Source: Bacteroidaceae bacterium (GTDB taxonomy: Bacteria > Bacteroidota > Bacteroidia > Bacteroidales > Bacteroidaceae). From it: a stretch of DNA of 55,063 nucleotides. Location: positions 1 through 55,063 of the forward strand of contig JAFNXL010000022.1 of NCBI GenBank assembly GCA_017379075.1, written 5' to 3'. Position numbers and translations under genes: made by a program. Below the pieces are notes generated by a model. That model was given only the letters and a program-made list of their open reading frames with translations, searched no databases and was not told where the DNA came from. Shown here one piece after another: positions 20,587-40,958 of the stretch (position 1 is the first letter of the stretch; each line of letters opens with the position of its first letter).

Positions 20587-20738
20587 AGGTCTTTTCTCCT
20601 TTCTGTTGTTTAGTGAGATTTTTTGTTCGCTTGTGCTTGGCATGATGACCAGACGTCCGGATAAAAAAGAAGGCTGTCATCACGACAACCACTCCTTTTC
20701 ATTAACCTTAAAAATCTAATACCATGAAAAACACGATG

Positions 20739-35190: not shown

Positions 35191-35264
35191 GGACTTGTAG
35201 CTCAGTTGGTTAGAGCAACAGACTCATAATCTGGAGGTCCTTGGTTCAAGCCCAAGCTGGTCCA
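35191..35264 (+). tRNA. tRNA with CAT anticodon (elongator Met or lysidine-type Ile2)
   Basis: A 74-nt cloverleaf: acceptor GGACTTG/CTGGTCC, D-arm GCTCAGTTGGTTAGAGC, anticodon stem CAGA/TCTG with loop CTCATAA, T-arm CTTGG-TTCAAGC-CCAAG, discriminator A. CCA is not encoded. Pair 6-67 is T·T (T at 35258), a mismatch; the displaced 3' copy at 38081 has A (38117), which would restore the pair. Met and Ile2 identity cannot be separated by eye; initiator Met is unlikely because position 1-72 pairs G-C. The 3' half is the integration site of the following island. Confidence 0.9.
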
Positions 35265-35318
35265 CTTTAAAAATCAAGCAGTTACGAAATTTCGTAACTG
35301 CTTTTTTCTTTATCTGCG
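35222..35318 (+). repeat. att-like direct repeat, left copy (tRNA 3' half plus terminator)
   Basis: 97 bp, repeated at 38081-38177 with no gap and three mismatches (acceptor T/A; one C/T in the hairpin; one T/C in the T-run). This is the pattern left by site-specific integration into a tRNA 3' end. Confidence 0.9.
35277..35306 (+). terminator. Terminator of tRNA (CAT)
   Basis: AGCAGTTACGAAA and TTTCGTAACTGCT form a perfect 13-bp inverted repeat followed by a T-run. The copy at the right end of the island has a single G-U change. Confidence 0.9.
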
Positions 35319-35347
35319 TAAACAATGCGTAAACATTTTATTTCAGT
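35313..35347 (+). repeat. 35-bp direct repeat inside island, left copy
   Basis: Contains GCGTAAACAATGCGTAAA and recurs at 37943-37977 with one mismatch. GCGTAAA is itself doubled 11 bp apart, as in recombinase binding sites. Confidence 0.75.
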
Positions 35348-35391
35348 CTCCCCTTTTCGGGCACCAAGTATCATAGAGTATCTATGATGCA

Positions 35392-35420
35392 TTTTTGCTA
35401 GAAGTTAAAATAGCAAAAAG
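35392..35420. other. Hairpin in island, 35392-35420
   Basis: TTTTTGCTA and TAGCAAAAA pair perfectly around a 10-base loop. No T-run follows on either strand, so a terminator role is uncertain. It lies beyond the end of the noncoding RNA gene. Confidence 0.5.
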
Positions 35421-35472
35421 AGGATTTTGTAGTAAATAACCTTAAAATTCAACAGCTTGTTTTGCTCCTTTT

Positions 35473-35524
35473 AATAAAAACAACTGCGTTTGACCATTGT
35501 CGAAGCAATAATCAAAGGCAGCTG
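35473..35524 (-). terminator. Terminator of the island noncoding RNA
   Basis: On the minus strand CAGCTGC-C-TTTGA pairs with TCAAA-C-GCAGTTG (12 pairs, one G-U, one C·C mismatch), extended inward by six more pairs around a loop with TTCG, followed by TTTTTATT at 35480-35473. Confidence 0.8.
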
Positions 35525-35866
35525 TGCAATCTCGGTCTCTTCTGTCGCTGTATGATAACCGGGCTTATGCTAATCGGTCCCAATCCCTGAAGAGTCTCTC
35601 GTGTGAAGTTAGGTAGAGTAATGTCCGACTATACTCCTTCCGCACATTGATCCATCGGAATGAATTTTTACCAGTCCACGTTCTGGTGAGCAGACTCACT
35701 TTGACTTCGTCTTATTCCCTCACGACTCGACATAATTGATGCAAACATCATTCTGTTCTCGCTGCTCTGTCATTTCCTGTCAAAACAAGAAGAACAACAT
35801 TTCGTTCTTGCCTAAGCAAGCGTCTCCTTATGTCGCCGAGCGCATGGCCCACTCTAATTGCTAATG
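35474..35866 (-). ncRNA. Unrecognised ~390-nt structured noncoding RNA gene
   Basis: No ORF of 60 codons exists on either strand here, yet the stretch is less A/T-rich than its surroundings and bounded by transcription signals: TATCTTTG (-7 type) at 35879-35872 and a strong terminator at 35524-35473, all on the minus strand. Internal perfect hairpins include CTTGC/GCAAG (loop TTAG), GTGAG/CTCAC (loop TCTG), GATG/CATC and GAC/GTC. I compared it by eye with tmRNA, RNase P RNA, 6S and SRP RNA and found none of their conserved segments (no tag reading frame, no RNase P P4 core). Ends are inferred from the signals. Degenerate former coding sequence is the main alternative. Confidence 0.6.
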
Positions 35867-35871
35867 CGATG

Positions 35872-35879
35872 CAAAGATA
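35872..35879 (-). promoter_or_regulatory. -7 box of the island noncoding RNA
   Basis: TATCTTTG read on the minus strand. A clear TTTG -33 box is missing at 19-21 bp; only GTTC-like sequence is there. A second TATCTTTG faces the other way at 35925-35932, also without a good -33. Confidence 0.55.
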
Positions 35880-36093
35880 CAACAATTTCCCCAATGGAAC
35901 GTAATAGCCTGGCAGAAAATAGAGTATCTTTGAGCATCTTTAACTATCATACTTGGATTGAGTATGAAAATAACACTAAAAAAAGAGCAATAATAATTTG
36001 TTTATAAGTATGTAAAAAACAAAATATTTTTCTGTTGTTTTTGTGATATACTCAACTTGTTGTGACCGAAATAATATTTTTACACACTTTTTT

Positions 36094-36359
36094 TATTGCT
36101 GTCCGGTAAAAATCATGAAGCGTTTCAAAAACAACATTTCCCCGGACAGCCGATATGTTTGGTATACATACAAGCCATTTTAGGGGGAAAAGTGCAGGAT
36201 AAAGCTTAAAATGGGAAATAACAATCATATATGATTTGTCTGTTCTCATCTATCAAAGAGATTTTTACCGGACAGCCGTTAATCCCCTTTCAAGGGGGGC
36301 TTGTAAAGCAAGAAAATCAGTGATTGTAGTCCCTTGCACATGTTTACCGGACAGCAATA
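36094..36359. mobile_element. MITE-like 266-bp element with 17-bp perfect inverted ends and 8-bp target duplication
   Basis: TATTGCTGTCCGGTAAA at 36094-36110 is perfectly inverted at 36343-36359. Both sides are flanked by ACTTTTTT (36086-36093 and 36360-36367), which looks like an 8-bp target duplication, though it is low in complexity. Two further end-like copies lie inside: CCGGACAGC at 36142-36150 and GATTTTTACCGGACAGC at 36260-36275; the latter is a perfect 17-base complement to 36098-36114. No ORF. Hairpins CCCCTT/AAGGGG (near 36283) and CCATTTTA/TAAAATGG (36176-36215 area) lie within. Confidence 0.6.
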
Positions 36360-36375
36360 ACTTTTTTCATAATAA

Positions 36376-36407
36376 TTTGCTAGAGTCAAAATAAAAACGT
36401 AAATTTG
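36376..36407 (+). promoter_or_regulatory. Promoter of island operon
   Basis: TTTG 36376-36379, 20 bp, TAAATTTG 36400-36407; 44 bases before the first ATG. The -33 box is only 8 bp from the right target duplication of the MITE-like element. Confidence 0.85.
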
Positions 36408-36451
36408 CAATCGAAAAGTATCCCGACAAAAGTAATCAATACGAAAGGAAT

Positions 36452-36682
36452 ATGAAATTTTCATTAAGCAATGATTCTCGCACATTGATACAACAGTCAA
36501 CAGGCTTGGATTATGCGCATCAGCGCTCTACTGCTATTTCCAATGTCAACACAAAGGTATATGGCAATAGTGCCTACAAGATTAAAGATTCGCGGGATGT
36601 GGCTCCTCGCGGCTCGATCTATCTTCAGATGGGTCGCATTATGTCGTTGCACAAAGTCAAGTCTTATTTGAAGAGAATTTAA
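36452..36682 (+). CDS. Hypothetical 76-residue protein, first gene of island operon
   Basis: A small basic protein without signal peptide or membrane segment (starts MKFSLSNDSRTLIQQSTG, ends with GSIYLQMGRIMSLHKVKSYL and KRI). I do not recognise a family. The gene is credible because a consensus promoter lies 44 bases upstream and the next gene starts 5 bp after its stop, so it is operonic. No DNA-binding helix-turn-helix is obvious; an antitoxin, regulator or small structural role cannot be told apart. Base composition is A/T-rich like the rest of the island. Confidence 0.65.
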   Translation: MKFSLSNDSRTLIQQSTGLDYAHQRSTAISNVNTKVYGNSAYKIKDSRDVAPRGSIYLQMGRIMSLHKVKSYLKRI

Positions 36683-36687
36683 GTTGC

Positions 36688-37320
36688 ATGCATCCGCAGA
36701 TATCAGTATTATACAGCAAATATAATAATACATTGCGCCCTCTGGTCTCCGAGATTGAAGGGCGCAATGAGCATTTTGAAGAACCCCTTCTTCTTAATGT
36801 TGCCTCAATGTTTGATTCTATAGCACTTAGCGAAGCTGACACGGATGCAAACAGCCGTGAGTCCCAAGTTAGTCAAGCAATGTCATTTCTAGACATAAGC
36901 ATAAGTCAAAGTTATCAATATTTGATTAAGAATCTCGACGAAAAAATGATTGCATTTGAAAAAAAGTGTAATGTCTCAGATCGTAGGATTCTAGCTAGCG
37001 GTCAATTTATCGGTAAGTACAATTCACTAAGAAGTCAAGCAAAAGAATGTGTAAGAAGAGGTCGTAACAAAGATGACCTTCATTCGTTAGAAGATTATGA
37101 ATCTGCATATAAGTACTATTCTAAAATTGAAAAGTTGATTGATAGAGAATTACCTGTCCAAGTAATGCAGAACACCAGAAGAAATTCTCATCGTTGGACT
37201 GTCATAGGTTGGTTTTCAAGCATTTTTATTTCTGTCGTAGTTGGCCAAATTGTTAATAATTATAGCGAGTCGATAATTTCATTTTTTAAGGAATGGATGA
37301 ACGTATTGCAGACATATTGA
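36688..37320 (+). CDS. Hypothetical protein with C-terminal membrane anchor (paralogue 1)
   Basis: A 210-residue protein. Residues 1-160 are polar and predicted helical (SVLYSKYNNTLRPLVSEIEG; later a YNSLRSQAKECVRRG and EDYESAYKYYSKIEKLI helix pair resembling a TPR-like hairpin). One hydrophobic segment near residues 174-192 (WTVIGWFSSIFISVVVGQIV) is followed by a short tail, so it is probably tail-anchored with the bulk in the cytoplasm. It aligns along its length with the next gene product (YxxTL/VRPLxxxI; YxxA...YxxA...Y...E motifs). The 3' end overlaps the next gene by 28 bases. Family unknown. Confidence 0.7.
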   Translation: MHPQISVLYSKYNNTLRPLVSEIEGRNEHFEEPLLLNVASMFDSIALSEADTDANSRESQVSQAMSFLDISISQSYQYLIKNLDEKMIAFEKKCNVSDRRILASGQFIGKYNSLRSQAKECVRRGRNKDDLHSLEDYESAYKYYSKIEKLIDRELPVQVMQNTRRNSHRWTVIGWFSSIFISVVVGQIVNNYSESIISFFKEWMNVLQTY

Positions 37321-37898
37321 AAAATTATAGAGATACGGTAAAACCGCTACTTGCTGACATCCAAGCAAGGAGGTCTGATGACAAGCTACCAGACAACTTC
37401 TTGAATGAGATAAGAGCATTAAATGACCATATTGCGCGTTGCTACCGTAATGACATCTCTGACGGACACTTCATAGACTCCGAGTTGACGAAGGCAGAGG
37501 GACATCTGAGGAGACTAATATATGATTGCTTCAAGCAATTGAATATATATATCAGTGACACGTTGGAATACAAAGAGAAGAAATACTATAGTGAGATGTG
37601 GTTGACTCATAAAAAGGGGGTATTTTGGACAAGTTATTCTAAGTACAGAAAATATGCTCAGCAATATGTGATTGATGCAAAAAAATCAGAGTCAATAGAT
37701 TCTGACAGGGCAATGGCTCTATATGAGAAAGCATTTCAAAGTTACCGTGGAGCAGAAGAATTACTATTAGAAAACCAAACCATGCTAAAGTTGTCATTTG
37801 TAAACAAACATTTACTCAAAGCTGGTCACTTTGGGTGGTGGTTTTTCATAACAGTTATTCTTTCTGTTATTAGTGCCCTTATTGGTCTTTTTTGCTAA
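37293..37898 (+). CDS. Hypothetical protein with C-terminal membrane anchor (paralogue 2)
   Basis: A 201-residue paralogue of the preceding product. It begins ADILKNYRDTVKPLLADIQA, matching the N-terminus of paralogue 1, and has the middle hairpin YSKYRKYAQQYVIDAK with DRAMALYEKAFQSYRGAEELL. The hydrophobic C-terminal segment (about 178-200, FGWWFFITVILSVISALIGLF) ends almost at the C-terminus, so the protein is tail-anchored. The 28-base overlap with paralogue 1 means tight coupling and suggests the two act together, perhaps as a heteromer. No enzymatic motif is seen. The pair might be a membrane-acting effector or a sensor; this is inference. Confidence 0.7.
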   Translation: MDERIADILKNYRDTVKPLLADIQARRSDDKLPDNFLNEIRALNDHIARCYRNDISDGHFIDSELTKAEGHLRRLIYDCFKQLNIYISDTLEYKEKKYYSEMWLTHKKGVFWTSYSKYRKYAQQYVIDAKKSESIDSDRAMALYEKAFQSYRGAEELLLENQTMLKLSFVNKHLLKAGHFGWWFFITVILSVISALIGLFC

Positions 37899-37942
37899 TA
37901 TACTACAAAACGAACAATAGTTATAGGAGTATGGATCCTGTT

Positions 37943-37977
37943 TCTGCGTAAACAATGCGTAAATATTTTATTTCAGT
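37943..37977 (+). repeat. 35-bp direct repeat inside island, right copy
   Basis: Matches 35313-35347 with one mismatch. Further right, CTGATATTCAGA occurs twice (near 37993 and 38030) and GGAATATCAT twice in tandem (near 38053 and 38063), as expected for recombinase arm sites beside an attachment site. Confidence 0.7.
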
Positions 37978-38080
37978 TAGGGGTATTTTCTGATATTCAG
38001 AGAAAGTCACATTTTTATAAGACGCTGATATTCAGAATACTTTCAGAACAAGGGAATATCATGGAATATCATTTTGCGAT

Positions 38081-38177
38081 ACTCATAATCTGGAGGTCCT
38101 TGGTTCAAGCCCAAGCAGGTCCACTTTAAAAATCAAGCAGTTACGAAATTTTGTAACTGCTTTTTCCTTTATCTGCG
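38081..38177 (+). repeat. att-like direct repeat, right copy (displaced tRNA 3' half)
   Basis: 97 bp homologous to 35222-35318. It begins in the anticodon loop (ACTCATAATCTGG) and includes the terminator. Here the acceptor strand reads CAGGTCC, which pairs fully with GGACTTG; by the usual logic of tRNA integration this copy is the original chromosomal 3' end. Confidence 0.9.
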
Positions 38178-38209: not shown

Positions 38210-39527
38210 GGTTCATCCGGTAAATGCGTATTTTTTCTCATGCATAGCTAGTATTTTGAGTTCAAAGAACTTCTCATCTCTATATCCGTAGGCTTGCCTT
38301 TTCATTGTTTTGATTTTATTGTTTATTCCTTCCAACTTAGCCGTTGAGATGTGGTAGTCATACCATGCAAGTATTCCACTTCTGTGAGCCATAAGCGTAT
38401 TTGCGAACTTGATTAGCAGTGGAACTTTGGAGTCCTTTGCCTGCCGTCCCCAATCGCATAGGACTTTTTCTGCTTGCTCCTTGTCTACCTGCATCCATAT
38501 TTCACGGAGCGCCTCCTTCAAATAATATCCCTTCATAAGCGGAGCGTTCATTTCCAGTGCATTTTCAAGCCTGTTCTTGTGATATGAATCGTAAATATCC
38601 TCGCCATTGCACAACAAAAGCCATCTGGTACCTTTGAGTACCTTTCGCTTCATCAAATCCGCTTCTTGGTTATATGCCAGTCTTCTGAGTTTGTCTAAAG
38701 TGTCGTTCATTAACTTCACCACATGAAAATGATCAAAGACCAAGGCTGCATCTGGGGCATTCTCCATTACAGAGGATATGAATGCGGCGGAAAGGTCTGT
38801 AGCTACGGCCTTAATCCGGGCCTTGGCTTTACATACTTTCTTCCAGAACTTATCCAAAGCATCCGCCCCCTTGCCATTACCGACATATACTACCTGACCA
38901 TTTTGGAGATTCACGACTATAGTCTTGTATACATGGCCCTTGCGGACTGCAAACTCATCGATACCGATATATTCCAGAGTGCTCAAGTCGGGATTGCTAT
39001 AGTGACGTTGAAGATAACGTTTCTGTATATCCTTGACTGTATCCCATGAAAGATTTAAGAACTGAGCGACATCCTTGATTGTCCCTATGCGAGACAAATC
39101 CACAACATATCTGGCAAACTTATTGGTGTAACAGCGTTTACCAGTCACGAAGTGAAGCTTCTCCTGGCGGACACATCCACATTCCTTACACTCAAGGCGT
39201 TGAACCTTAATGCGTAATATGGTCTCTCTATGACCGACAGGAACGCATCTTATATCGCGGAAAATGCAACCAGAACGGATAACATGCCGGCTATTGCATT
39301 CAGGGCAACGTAATTTATCCTTGCGAGTTTGGATGTAGTGAATATTTTGATTACCTTTGAACTCTGTTTTAGTGCATTCGTGATGGCGTACGCCGAAAGC
39401 ATGATACAGATAGCTGGGATTCATAACACGATACTTTAGTTTGGACAACCAAAGATAGTGAGATAATCTTAGCTATCTTCTTTTATGACAAATAATCATA
39501 TACGCCTACGCATTTGTCGGATGAACC
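38210..39527 (-). mobile_element. Intact ISL3-family insertion sequence, 1,318 bp
   Basis: Ends are GGTTCATCCG-(2 mismatches)-AAATGCGTA at 38210-38230 and its inverse at 39507-39527 (21 bp, 19 identical). ATAATATG flanks both sides (38202-38209 and 39528-39535), an 8-bp target duplication as typical for ISL3. The single transposase gene fills the element; its stop codon lies within the left end. Confidence 0.92.
38213..39424 (-). CDS. ISL3-family transposase
   Basis: A 403-residue DDE transposase. The N-terminal zinc-finger region has CPECNSRHVIRSGC and, further on, CKECGC (C40, C43 and C79, C82), followed by a helix-turn-helix around TIKDVAQFLNLSWDTVKDI. The ISL3 catalytic core begins with YIGIDEFAVRKGHVYKTIVV (first Asp), continues with KAVATDLSAAF (second Asp region) and ends with STAKLEGINNKIKTMKRQAYGYRD, which carries the Glu in LEG. 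The frame is uninterrupted. The ATG at 39424 was chosen over a TTG at 39448. It moves the element between DNA sites by cut-and-paste or related chemistry. Confidence 0.93.
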   Translation of the reverse strand: MNPSYLYHAFGVRHHECTKTEFKGNQNIHYIQTRKDKLRCPECNSRHVIRSGCIFRDIRCVPVGHRETILRIKVQRLECKECGCVRQEKLHFVTGKRCYTNKFARYVVDLSRIGTIKDVAQFLNLSWDTVKDIQKRYLQRHYSNPDLSTLEYIGIDEFAVRKGHVYKTIVVNLQNGQVVYVGNGKGADALDKFWKKVCKAKARIKAVATDLSAAFISSVMENAPDAALVFDHFHVVKLMNDTLDKLRRLAYNQEADLMKRKVLKGTRWLLLCNGEDIYDSYHKNRLENALEMNAPLMKGYYLKEALREIWMQVDKEQAEKVLCDWGRQAKDSKVPLLIKFANTLMAHRSGILAWYDYHISTAKLEGINNKIKTMKRQAYGYRDEKFFELKILAMHEKKYAFTG

Positions 39528-39680: not shown

Positions 39681-40958
39681 ATGCGTAAATTAGTCTTTAT
39701 ATTAATAGCATACTGCCTTCCTTTAGTAGTGAATGCACAAGAGGCTGATATGCGAATAAGCGAGTTGATCAATACTTCAAATTGGTTCGCATTGGAGAAA
39801 GAGTATCCTTTATTGAAGGATTCCATTCAATATGACTTTGTTGGTTTAATGGCGGAAGCAATGATTGCACAGAACTTCAATAAAGAGAAAGAGGCTATTG
39901 GTATGTTCCGGACATTAATAAATTCGCATCAGCAGCAAATAGGTAGCGGTGCGGCTCTAAGTTTGGCTGAAATGGCTTTGGGGAATTACGAACGTTGTGG
40001 AATGTATCGCTTGGCTGCAGATAAAGCTAATGGTTTAATTGATCAGATAAAAACGTCTGGCGCCCCAATTGATTATACCAAACTGCTTGATATACATAAA
40101 AGGAATAAGGCATTGTCAAAATATGATTCAACAATAGTGATTCATCGCAATACAAAGGATATGATAGTTCCGTTTACGATGAATAATTCTGATGTATTGT
40201 TTGACAAACAAACTCCGGTTTCAAACAGGTATTATATACCGGTAACGATTCATGGGGTTGCGTATCAATTTATGTTTGACACTGGAGCAACTACAACCTA
40301 TCTGTCAAAAAGATTAGCTGACCGTATAGGAGTAGAATATATTGATTATAGTTCTCAATATGGTAGTTTGGCTTATTTGGATAGTATGCAATTGGGTGAT
40401 GTGACCTTCAAAAATGTAATAGCATTGGTACATAACGGAACACCTTTAGATAGTATATGTAATATAGATGCAGTTTTAGGGATGGACCTTGTGCGTCAAT
40501 TGGATGAATTGCGGATAGATAATAAGAATAATCAAATAACATTGCCTGTTAAAAAATCAAAGAAGCCCGAATGTGGTCGAAACCTTAGATGTACTAATCA
40601 ATTCCTATTTGTGGATGTGATGGATGAAAAAGGTTCGTTGGTCGCATTACTTGACAGCGGGGCTGAGACCGGATTTACTTATAATTATTTCCTTAAGCAT
40701 CAAAGTGAATTCAGTCAACTCCGTGGAACTAAAGAGATTGTTACGGGGAACGTTGATGGGTTTCAATCCACGATGGCAATACATGTTCCTTCTATAAATA
40801 TGACAATTTGTGGTCATGAATTAAATATGAAAGATGTGTATGTGCCATATATGAAAGCTAAAAATGAAAATAATGACATCGTACTTGGCATAGATTTCTT
40901 TAGGAAATATAACTATGTCACCTTAAATTTCAAAGATATGTTTATAGTGTGTGAGTAA
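39681..40958 (+). CDS. Exported protein with two retropepsin-like aspartic protease domains
   Basis: A 425-residue protein with a signal peptide (MRKLVFILIAYCLPLVVNA). An N-terminal helical region, TPR-like, covers about residues 25-150. The first retropepsin domain has FMFDTGATTTYLS (D200-T-G) and closes with IDAVLGMDLV near 262. The second has ALLDSGAETGFT (D325-S-G) and closes with NDIVLGIDFF near 405. Each thus has the catalytic D-(T/S)-G and the hydrophobic-G psi-loop motif. Retropepsins normally act as homodimers; two domains in one chain could form an internal dimer as in pepsin. Substrate unknown. Base composition is A/T-rich compared with flanking core genes. Confidence 0.82.
   Translation: MRKLVFILIAYCLPLVVNAQEADMRISELINTSNWFALEKEYPLLKDSIQYDFVGLMAEAMIAQNFNKEKEAIGMFRTLINSHQQQIGSGAALSLAEMALGNYERCGMYRLAADKANGLIDQIKTSGAPIDYTKLLDIHKRNKALSKYDSTIVIHRNTKDMIVPFTMNNSDVLFDKQTPVSNRYYIPVTIHGVAYQFMFDTGATTTYLSKRLADRIGVEYIDYSSQYGSLAYLDSMQLGDVTFKNVIALVHNGTPLDSICNIDAVLGMDLVRQLDELRIDNKNNQITLPVKKSKKPECGRNLRCTNQFLFVDVMDEKGSLVALLDSGAETGFTYNYFLKHQSEFSQLRGTKEIVTGNVDGFQSTMAIHVPSINMTICGHELNMKDVYVPYMKAKNENNDIVLGIDFFRKYNYVTLNFKDMFIVCE

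Follow-up and report, generated by a model that had tools for sequence, protein, structure and literature searches.

A structured RNA of Bacteroidaceae mobile elements, probably the leader switch of a tyrosine integrase operon, and a copy left without its integrase

We analyzed 55,063 nucleotides of DNA from a Bacteroidaceae bacterium (contig JAFNXL010000022.1, positions 1 to 55,063; hereafter the window). Within the window, a small island lies at a tRNA-Met gene, and the 3' part of this gene is repeated at the far end of the island together with the hairpin that follows it (Table 1), which bears out the tRNA-bounded island of a preliminary description of this DNA. Inside each end of the island (35222-38177) is a copy of a motif that we label arm-like, and the same or a similar motif occurs near the att-like repeats of two other genomes, G040 and G212. 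No window ORF between the two att repeats matches an integrase, and the assembly (92% complete) holds no relative at E ≤ 1e-10 of the family integrase described below. Flanked by att direct repeats at a tRNA, with no integrase inside, the island is CIME-like. Its cargo is three small ORFs without a Pfam, NCBIfam or PADLOC match. By eye, two of them (36688-37320 and 37293-37898) look like paralogs, each with a hydrophobic stretch close to its own end. For the 210-aa ORF, 139 genomes of the genus contain a single further relative (in G029), and the RNA that is our subject is absent from the locus of that relative (L195). A motif around ACCGGACAGC recurs in both orientations at 36093-36360, between the RNA and the cargo ORFs. 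Just past the far att repeat is an ISL3-family transposase gene (38213-39448), followed by an aspartyl-protease-like gene (39681-40958).

Table 1. Features of the tRNA-Met island and of the RNA within it (window coordinates).
Feature	Coordinates	Strand	Remarks
tRNA-Met (CAT), integration target	35191..35265	+	ARAGORN
att direct repeat, copy 1 (3' part of tRNA-Met and hairpin after it)	35222..35318	+	97 bp, 97% identity to 38081-38177
att direct repeat, copy 2	38081..38177	+	Far end of 2.86-kb island; 97% identity to copy 1
Arm-like motif TTTACGCATTGTTTACGCAGA, copy 1	35313..35333	-	"Arm" is a label given here
Arm-like motif, copy 2	37943..37963	-	
Three small ORFs (76, 210 and 201 aa)	36452..37898	+	Mini-island cargo
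Structured leader-type RNA, predicted transcript of 390 nt	35476..35865	-	168 bits with model R1 at 35518-35772; 50/56 model pairs kept
Promoter box TATCTTTG, Bacteroidetes -7 type (presumed)	35872..35879	-	Just outside the end given in the preliminary description
Terminator hairpin and T-run (stem 2:3 of leader model)	35476..35524	-	Stem conserved in relatives
Segment 1 CAGCGACAG, 5' strand of pseudoknot Ph	35542..35550	-	Kept in 30 relatives
Segment 2 GCACAGCTGC, common to Ph and terminator	35518..35527	-	
Hairpin Pg, loop GACCGATTAGCATAAGCCCGG	35554..35587	-	Loop is most conserved
Insert 1, ~36-nt dispersed repeat	35807..35842	-	L117, which has the integrase, carries a similar insert there
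Insert 2, 73-nt dispersed repeat	35700..35772	-	Missing from most relatives; L111 and L128, which have the integrase, carry a similar insert there

The RNA is encoded on the minus strand and points away from the small-ORF operon, bounded by a promoter box and a terminator, all as first described. We named the box by what we take to be the consensus of the Bacteroidetes -7 type, and we place the predicted 5' end (~35865) about 7 nt beyond it. The claims that this stretch lacks an ORF and stands out in composition also hold: no ORF longer than 49 aa (ATG, GTG or TTG starts) overlaps 35474-35866, and its G+C content is 0.451 for 35476-35865, higher than in the flanking parts of the island (0.316 on the left, 0.357 on the right). 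At gathering thresholds Rfam 15 returned nothing over the RNA, and permissive matches were at chance level (E 4.3 or worse). Neither the window copy nor six clean relatives gave a credible covariance-model match over the RNA to GOLLD, ROOL or HEARO, the large RNAs from which it had been set apart by eye, or to int-alpA or any other Rfam 15 family; in the permissive scans of these relatives, a microRNA model came up near the RNA of L058 with E 1.3. Across the whole window, the gathering scan matched only tRNA and FopS. The latter, BTncRNA_FopS (a Bacteroidetes family of paralogous sRNAs), lies at 20660-20734 on the minus strand and scores 74 bits against a gathering threshold of 56. Single-sequence folding of the window RNA is unremarkable (z = -1.53), so the window sequence alone does not prove structure, and the perfect hairpins noted in it by eye do not serve as proof; the proof comes from relatives.

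Such relatives, for which a nucleotide search had been suggested, were found in several genera. An exact 25-base pattern identified 37 loci in a collection with one genome per species, among them Bacteroides, Phocaeicola, Prevotella, Alloprevotella, Palleniella, Marseilla, unclassified Bacteroidales and one metagenome-assembled genome titled Bacillota. The last (L123) has an RNA of the Bacteroides type, and its integrase shares 90% identity with that of L085, a case of either binning error or transfer. Phocaeicola barnesiae DSM 18169 and Bacteroides finegoldii DSM 17565, the latter lacking the terminator hairpin, are laboratory strains among the carriers. Viral contigs held no exact pattern, and blastn of one relative, L113, found nothing in phage records and a single match in plasmid records, in a stretch without listed genes of a Phocaeicola massiliensis record. 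Within the 139 genus genomes, DNA search gave matches in 49, nearly all of them short pieces and mostly of two dispersed repeats; a near full-length relative was found only in G040 and a longer part in G009. A search with the core of G040 gave hits in 40 of 399 family genomes; in a good share of these, short pieces alone matched, from the 5' end or elsewhere. Model R1 matched 2 of 393 order-level genomes, the window's own (G000) and G150, in a scan that scored at most five candidates per genome under strict filters and may miss weak relatives. A TAnnTTTG box lies upstream in 37 of the 41 copies examined, and two of the other four loci start too late to show one.

Both inserts in the window RNA are dispersed repeats that are missing from the RNA of G040, and the core is therefore ~280 of the 390 nt; the ~390 nt originally reported includes both inserts. 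Similar inserts occur in leaders that precede an integrase (L117, L111 and L128), and we rejected the idea that the inserts are marks of decay. The two short repeat families (~36 and ~73 nt) are present in many genus genomes, including matches in L003-L030. As a partial check of insertion in protein genes, 4 of 30 repeat matches lie within a frame open for at least 50 aa on both sides.

To ask what is conserved in the RNA, we aligned 30 distinct insert-free copies (alignment A1) from 41 candidates, leaving out the window copy, the insert-bearing copies L111, L117 and L128, the deleted, truncated or cut copies L120, L118, L100, L101, L104 and L124, and the duplicate L132. Most of the helices come from visual inspection of the very sequences on which the pairs were then counted. 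For the 44 pairs so drawn, 93.2% of cells are paired versus 87.3% after shuffling and 34.8-40.5% in slid controls, and 23 pairs have changed on both sides versus 11.7±1.6 in shuffles. RNAalifold adds two helices, Pi (for example, GUUGCUUC/GAAGACAAC against GGCUCUUC/GAAGAUGCC) and Pj, and does not return PK2 or Ph, helices that cross others. With Pi and Pj included, 56 pairs have 93.8% of cells paired versus 79.3±2.4% in 300 tree-aware simulations and 28 both-sided changes versus 12.3 simulated, with neither value reached in any simulation, and 34 double compensatory changes can be reconstructed on branches. By percentage paired, Pa, Pf and Pi each exceed all 300 simulations and Pg all but one, while PK1, PK2, Pe and Ph show no clear excess (reached by 19, 25, 46 and 15 simulations); Pe does exceed the simulations in both-sided pairs. 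Pj is not judgeable on its own against the simulations, and Pc, which adjoins PK1 and has no single register for both lineages, was excluded from the counts, as was most of Pb. When column pairs of the 30 relatives were tested for covariation without an assumed structure, against a tree-aware null, none was significant by itself. Because no single-pair score exceeds the null, the support is for the helix set as a whole: homologs do carry compensatory changes, as the preliminary description anticipated, but no individual pair is significant. Against this set, the window copy retains 50 of the 56 pairs, the G212 copy 51 and the others 50-54, except for the divergent L112 with 42; the window copy is nearly intact, at the low end of pair retention.

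The same relatives bear on whether the stretch is a decayed protein-coding gene, an outcome named at the outset as fatal to an RNA reading. One antisense frame is free of stops in 7 of the 30 relatives, as a decayed gene might leave behind. None of the 30 has an open sense frame, no ORF looks conserved, and 98 of 100 internal indels, counted against reference L113 and not independent events, are not multiples of three and break the frame. On present data this idea, to which we give next to no weight, is already refuted. Based on the comparison among relatives, we conclude that this is a real, conserved, pseudoknotted structured RNA that is absent from the Rfam library.

The genes around the relatives place the RNA in a consistent context. 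In 32 of the 37 pattern loci, a tyrosine integrase gene follows on the same strand, 94-198 nt downstream of the anchor motif. In the other five, L104 and L121 end too soon, L105 has an integrase-like N-terminal remnant (by eye), and L097 and L100 have none. The view of the window RNA as an orphan gene class does not survive at the level of the family; the rest of that first reading, a structured RNA on mobile DNA, does. For instance, at L085 the genes after that of the integrase (Phage_integrase and SAM-like domains) encode DUF6043, DUF3853 and a VapE-like protein and, further on, a NikA-like protein and then a relaxase; judged by these genes, L085 is an integrative mobilizable element. Cargo upstream of the RNA varies among relatives; genes resembling HipA, SIR2 and AbiEii were read there by eye, without a search. 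We also compared integrase loci from 24 of 301 family genomes. The RNA is present at 11 of 12 loci whose integrase has at least 56.7% identity, the exception (L176) being matched only from residue 92, and at none of 17 loci of 30-53% identity. Model R1, run on 20 of the 30 distant integrase loci collected, gave nothing credible (best 10.2 bits, E 0.082). Six sister leaders that we read (L175, L177, L179, L181, L183 and L189; integrases 37-53% identical) are without such an RNA, and in all six int directly follows a tRNA-like att sequence. Five of the six carry doubled GTTTTCGCA/GTTTTCCCA-like motifs.

We next examined the region between the RNA and the integrase start. The stretches that precede the int start have more stable predicted folds than their mononucleotide shuffles (mean z of -3.0 for 36 related sequences). 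The start could be read in 33 leaders; three identical ones were dropped, and the remainder fall into 14 Prevotella-type and 16 Bacteroides-type leaders; L096, in which the terminator hairpin is deleted, was left out of the latter, so that 15 are counted. L112 has no comparable hairpin. The shuffles used for these stems ignore relatedness. In the Prevotella-type leaders, the terminator is 99.2% paired with two both-sided pairs, a modest result that 38 of 500 shuffles reach, and the antiterminator is 100% paired with one both-sided pair, which is not unusual (226/500). The start-codon stem is 92.3% paired and has both-sided changes at 7 of its 12 pairs, a number reached by none of 500 shuffles. 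At the columns common to antiterminator and start-codon stem (74/108/148), five leaders have T-A-T, four C-G-C, two T-G-C and three C-G-A, the last being a broken start-codon pair in 3 of 14; the five T-A-T leaders may be one clade and reflect one event. In the Bacteroides-type leaders, the terminator is 99.5% paired without a both-sided change and the hairpin adjoining the AUG 99.2% paired without a both-sided pair. The antiterminator is 97.9% paired with three both-sided pairs (5/500 shuffles), and the start-codon pairing CAUUGCA/UGCAAUG is 95.2% paired, also with three (9/500). By comparison, then, the family has a structured domain in the integrase leader at 32 of 37 loci, presumably cotranscribed with the gene, and mutually exclusive stems that include an intrinsic terminator, of which the window keeps the terminator only.

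These data also address whether the palindromes are a DNA feature, that is, binding sites for the integrase or an excision factor in the att region, with no RNA structure. The position of the RNA upstream of int, and in the window near the end of the element with arm-like repeats close by, is what such sites would predict. In structures chosen on these same sequences, though, G.U is accepted far above A.C, with 139 versus 20 cells in the domain and 71 versus 8 and 47 versus 4 in the other two counts, pointing to an RNA of the minus strand. Changes at pseudoknot pairs and at shared columns are coordinated, and the RNA lies between a promoter box and a terminator. We regard a DNA feature as very unlikely.

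Given its place before the integrase and the stems that link the two, we propose that the RNA is probably the 5' leader switch of a tyrosine integrase operon in integrative mobilizable elements of Bacteroidaceae, and that the window copy is a leftover without its integrase. Five segments would form a chain of mutually exclusive stems: pseudoknot 1:2, terminator 2:3, antiterminator 3:4 and start-codon stem 4:5. In the ON state the domain would hold pseudoknot 1:2, so that segment 3 pairs with 4 and the start codon in segment 5 is open. In the OFF state 2 would pair with 3 to form the terminator, 4 would pair with 5 and the start codon would be closed, shutting off transcription and translation together. 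The domain and the overlapping stems come from comparison, whereas we infer the logic that combines 1:2 with 3:4 and 2:3 with 4:5. The choice between states would depend on an agent that binds the conserved domain or alters its fold.

The window retains the promoter box, RNA and terminator and lacks segments 4 and 5 along with the integrase operon. Its RNA would for this reason always end at the terminator, giving a transcript of ~390 nt that stands alone, and the att-bounded element would be movable only with an integrase supplied in trans. A second such case is G212 (L075 and L097, one record), where att-like repeats and motifs surround the RNA and two large ORFs without an integrase, and where no intact tRNA was found. 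Since the break after the terminator lies at a different site in G212 than in the window, loss of the integrase beside the RNA has probably happened more than once. That box, RNA and terminator are kept in two integrase-less elements means that the RNA could have a role of its own.

This persistence, together with the RNA's own promoter box and strong hairpin with T-run, is also what would be expected of a self-standing, trans-acting noncoding RNA that merely lies upstream of the integrase with its own terminator and serves, for example, in mobilization control or in excluding related elements. There is a precedent in SGI1, a mobilizable island of other bacteria, which is described as requiring a self-encoded sRNA for its transfer (PMC9299015). 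We nevertheless consider this unlikely: the stems beyond the terminator extend as far as the integrase start codon, with which they covary, no such RNA was found upstream of sister integrases, and four other copies without an adjacent intact integrase (L072, L079, L094 and L100) are incomplete.

The time at which mobile elements of gut Bacteroidaceae enter or leave the chromosome depends on how their integrases are controlled. If the leader switch is correct, gating of the integrase by a structured RNA would be an added regulatory layer, and the RNA possibly a new signal-binding one. The window suggests in addition that, after integrase loss, a switch can outlive the gene it once controlled. 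More tentatively, and against the odds in our own estimate, the family could be a new riboswitch-like class in which the pseudoknotted domain senses a signal (candidates are a metabolite, a protein of the element or of a helper, or the excised or integrated state), the four-stem chain gates integrase transcription and translation, and solo copies act in trans, for example by soaking up the signal to influence a helper element. A covariance model, an explicit pairing scheme and named genomes are available for the family, which makes it directly testable.

Among the matches listed in the open-access literature, none describes this RNA or an integrase leader switch in Bacteroidaceae. Riboswitches and attenuator leaders are the general class of RNAs with a choice between terminator and antiterminator. 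The RNA resembles them in having a structured 5'-leader domain followed by mutually exclusive stems, one of which is an intrinsic terminator; it differs in its putative control of a mobile-element integrase, in its four overlapping stems that end in the start codon, and in having no credible Rfam match. The sgm-sRNA of SGI1, as described, is derived from the 3' end of a primary RNA encoded between mpsA and oriT (PMC9299015). It is likewise an RNA of an integrative mobilizable island, with a primary transcript and a terminator-like sequence near a promoter, whereas the RNA here is an integrase leader in Bacteroidaceae; this comparison is with the description of sgm-sRNA and not with its sequence. 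The int-alpA RNA motif, an Rfam name (PMC12370729), is tied to integrases by that name but is not among the Rfam matches of the RNA here. From human microbiomes, one survey mentions 28 candidate structured RNAs near integrase, sortase or phage domains, and also a palindromic 109-bp Bacteroidetes motif close to a phage integrase domain (PMC8040213); these too lie near integrase domains, and at the level of that description an overlap with the RNA here is possible. Lastly, in ICEKp1 the int promoter is described as switching in a state-dependent manner (PMC13023037). Integrase transcription is gated in both systems, by promoter choice in ICEKp1 and, we propose, by an RNA leader in Bacteroidaceae.
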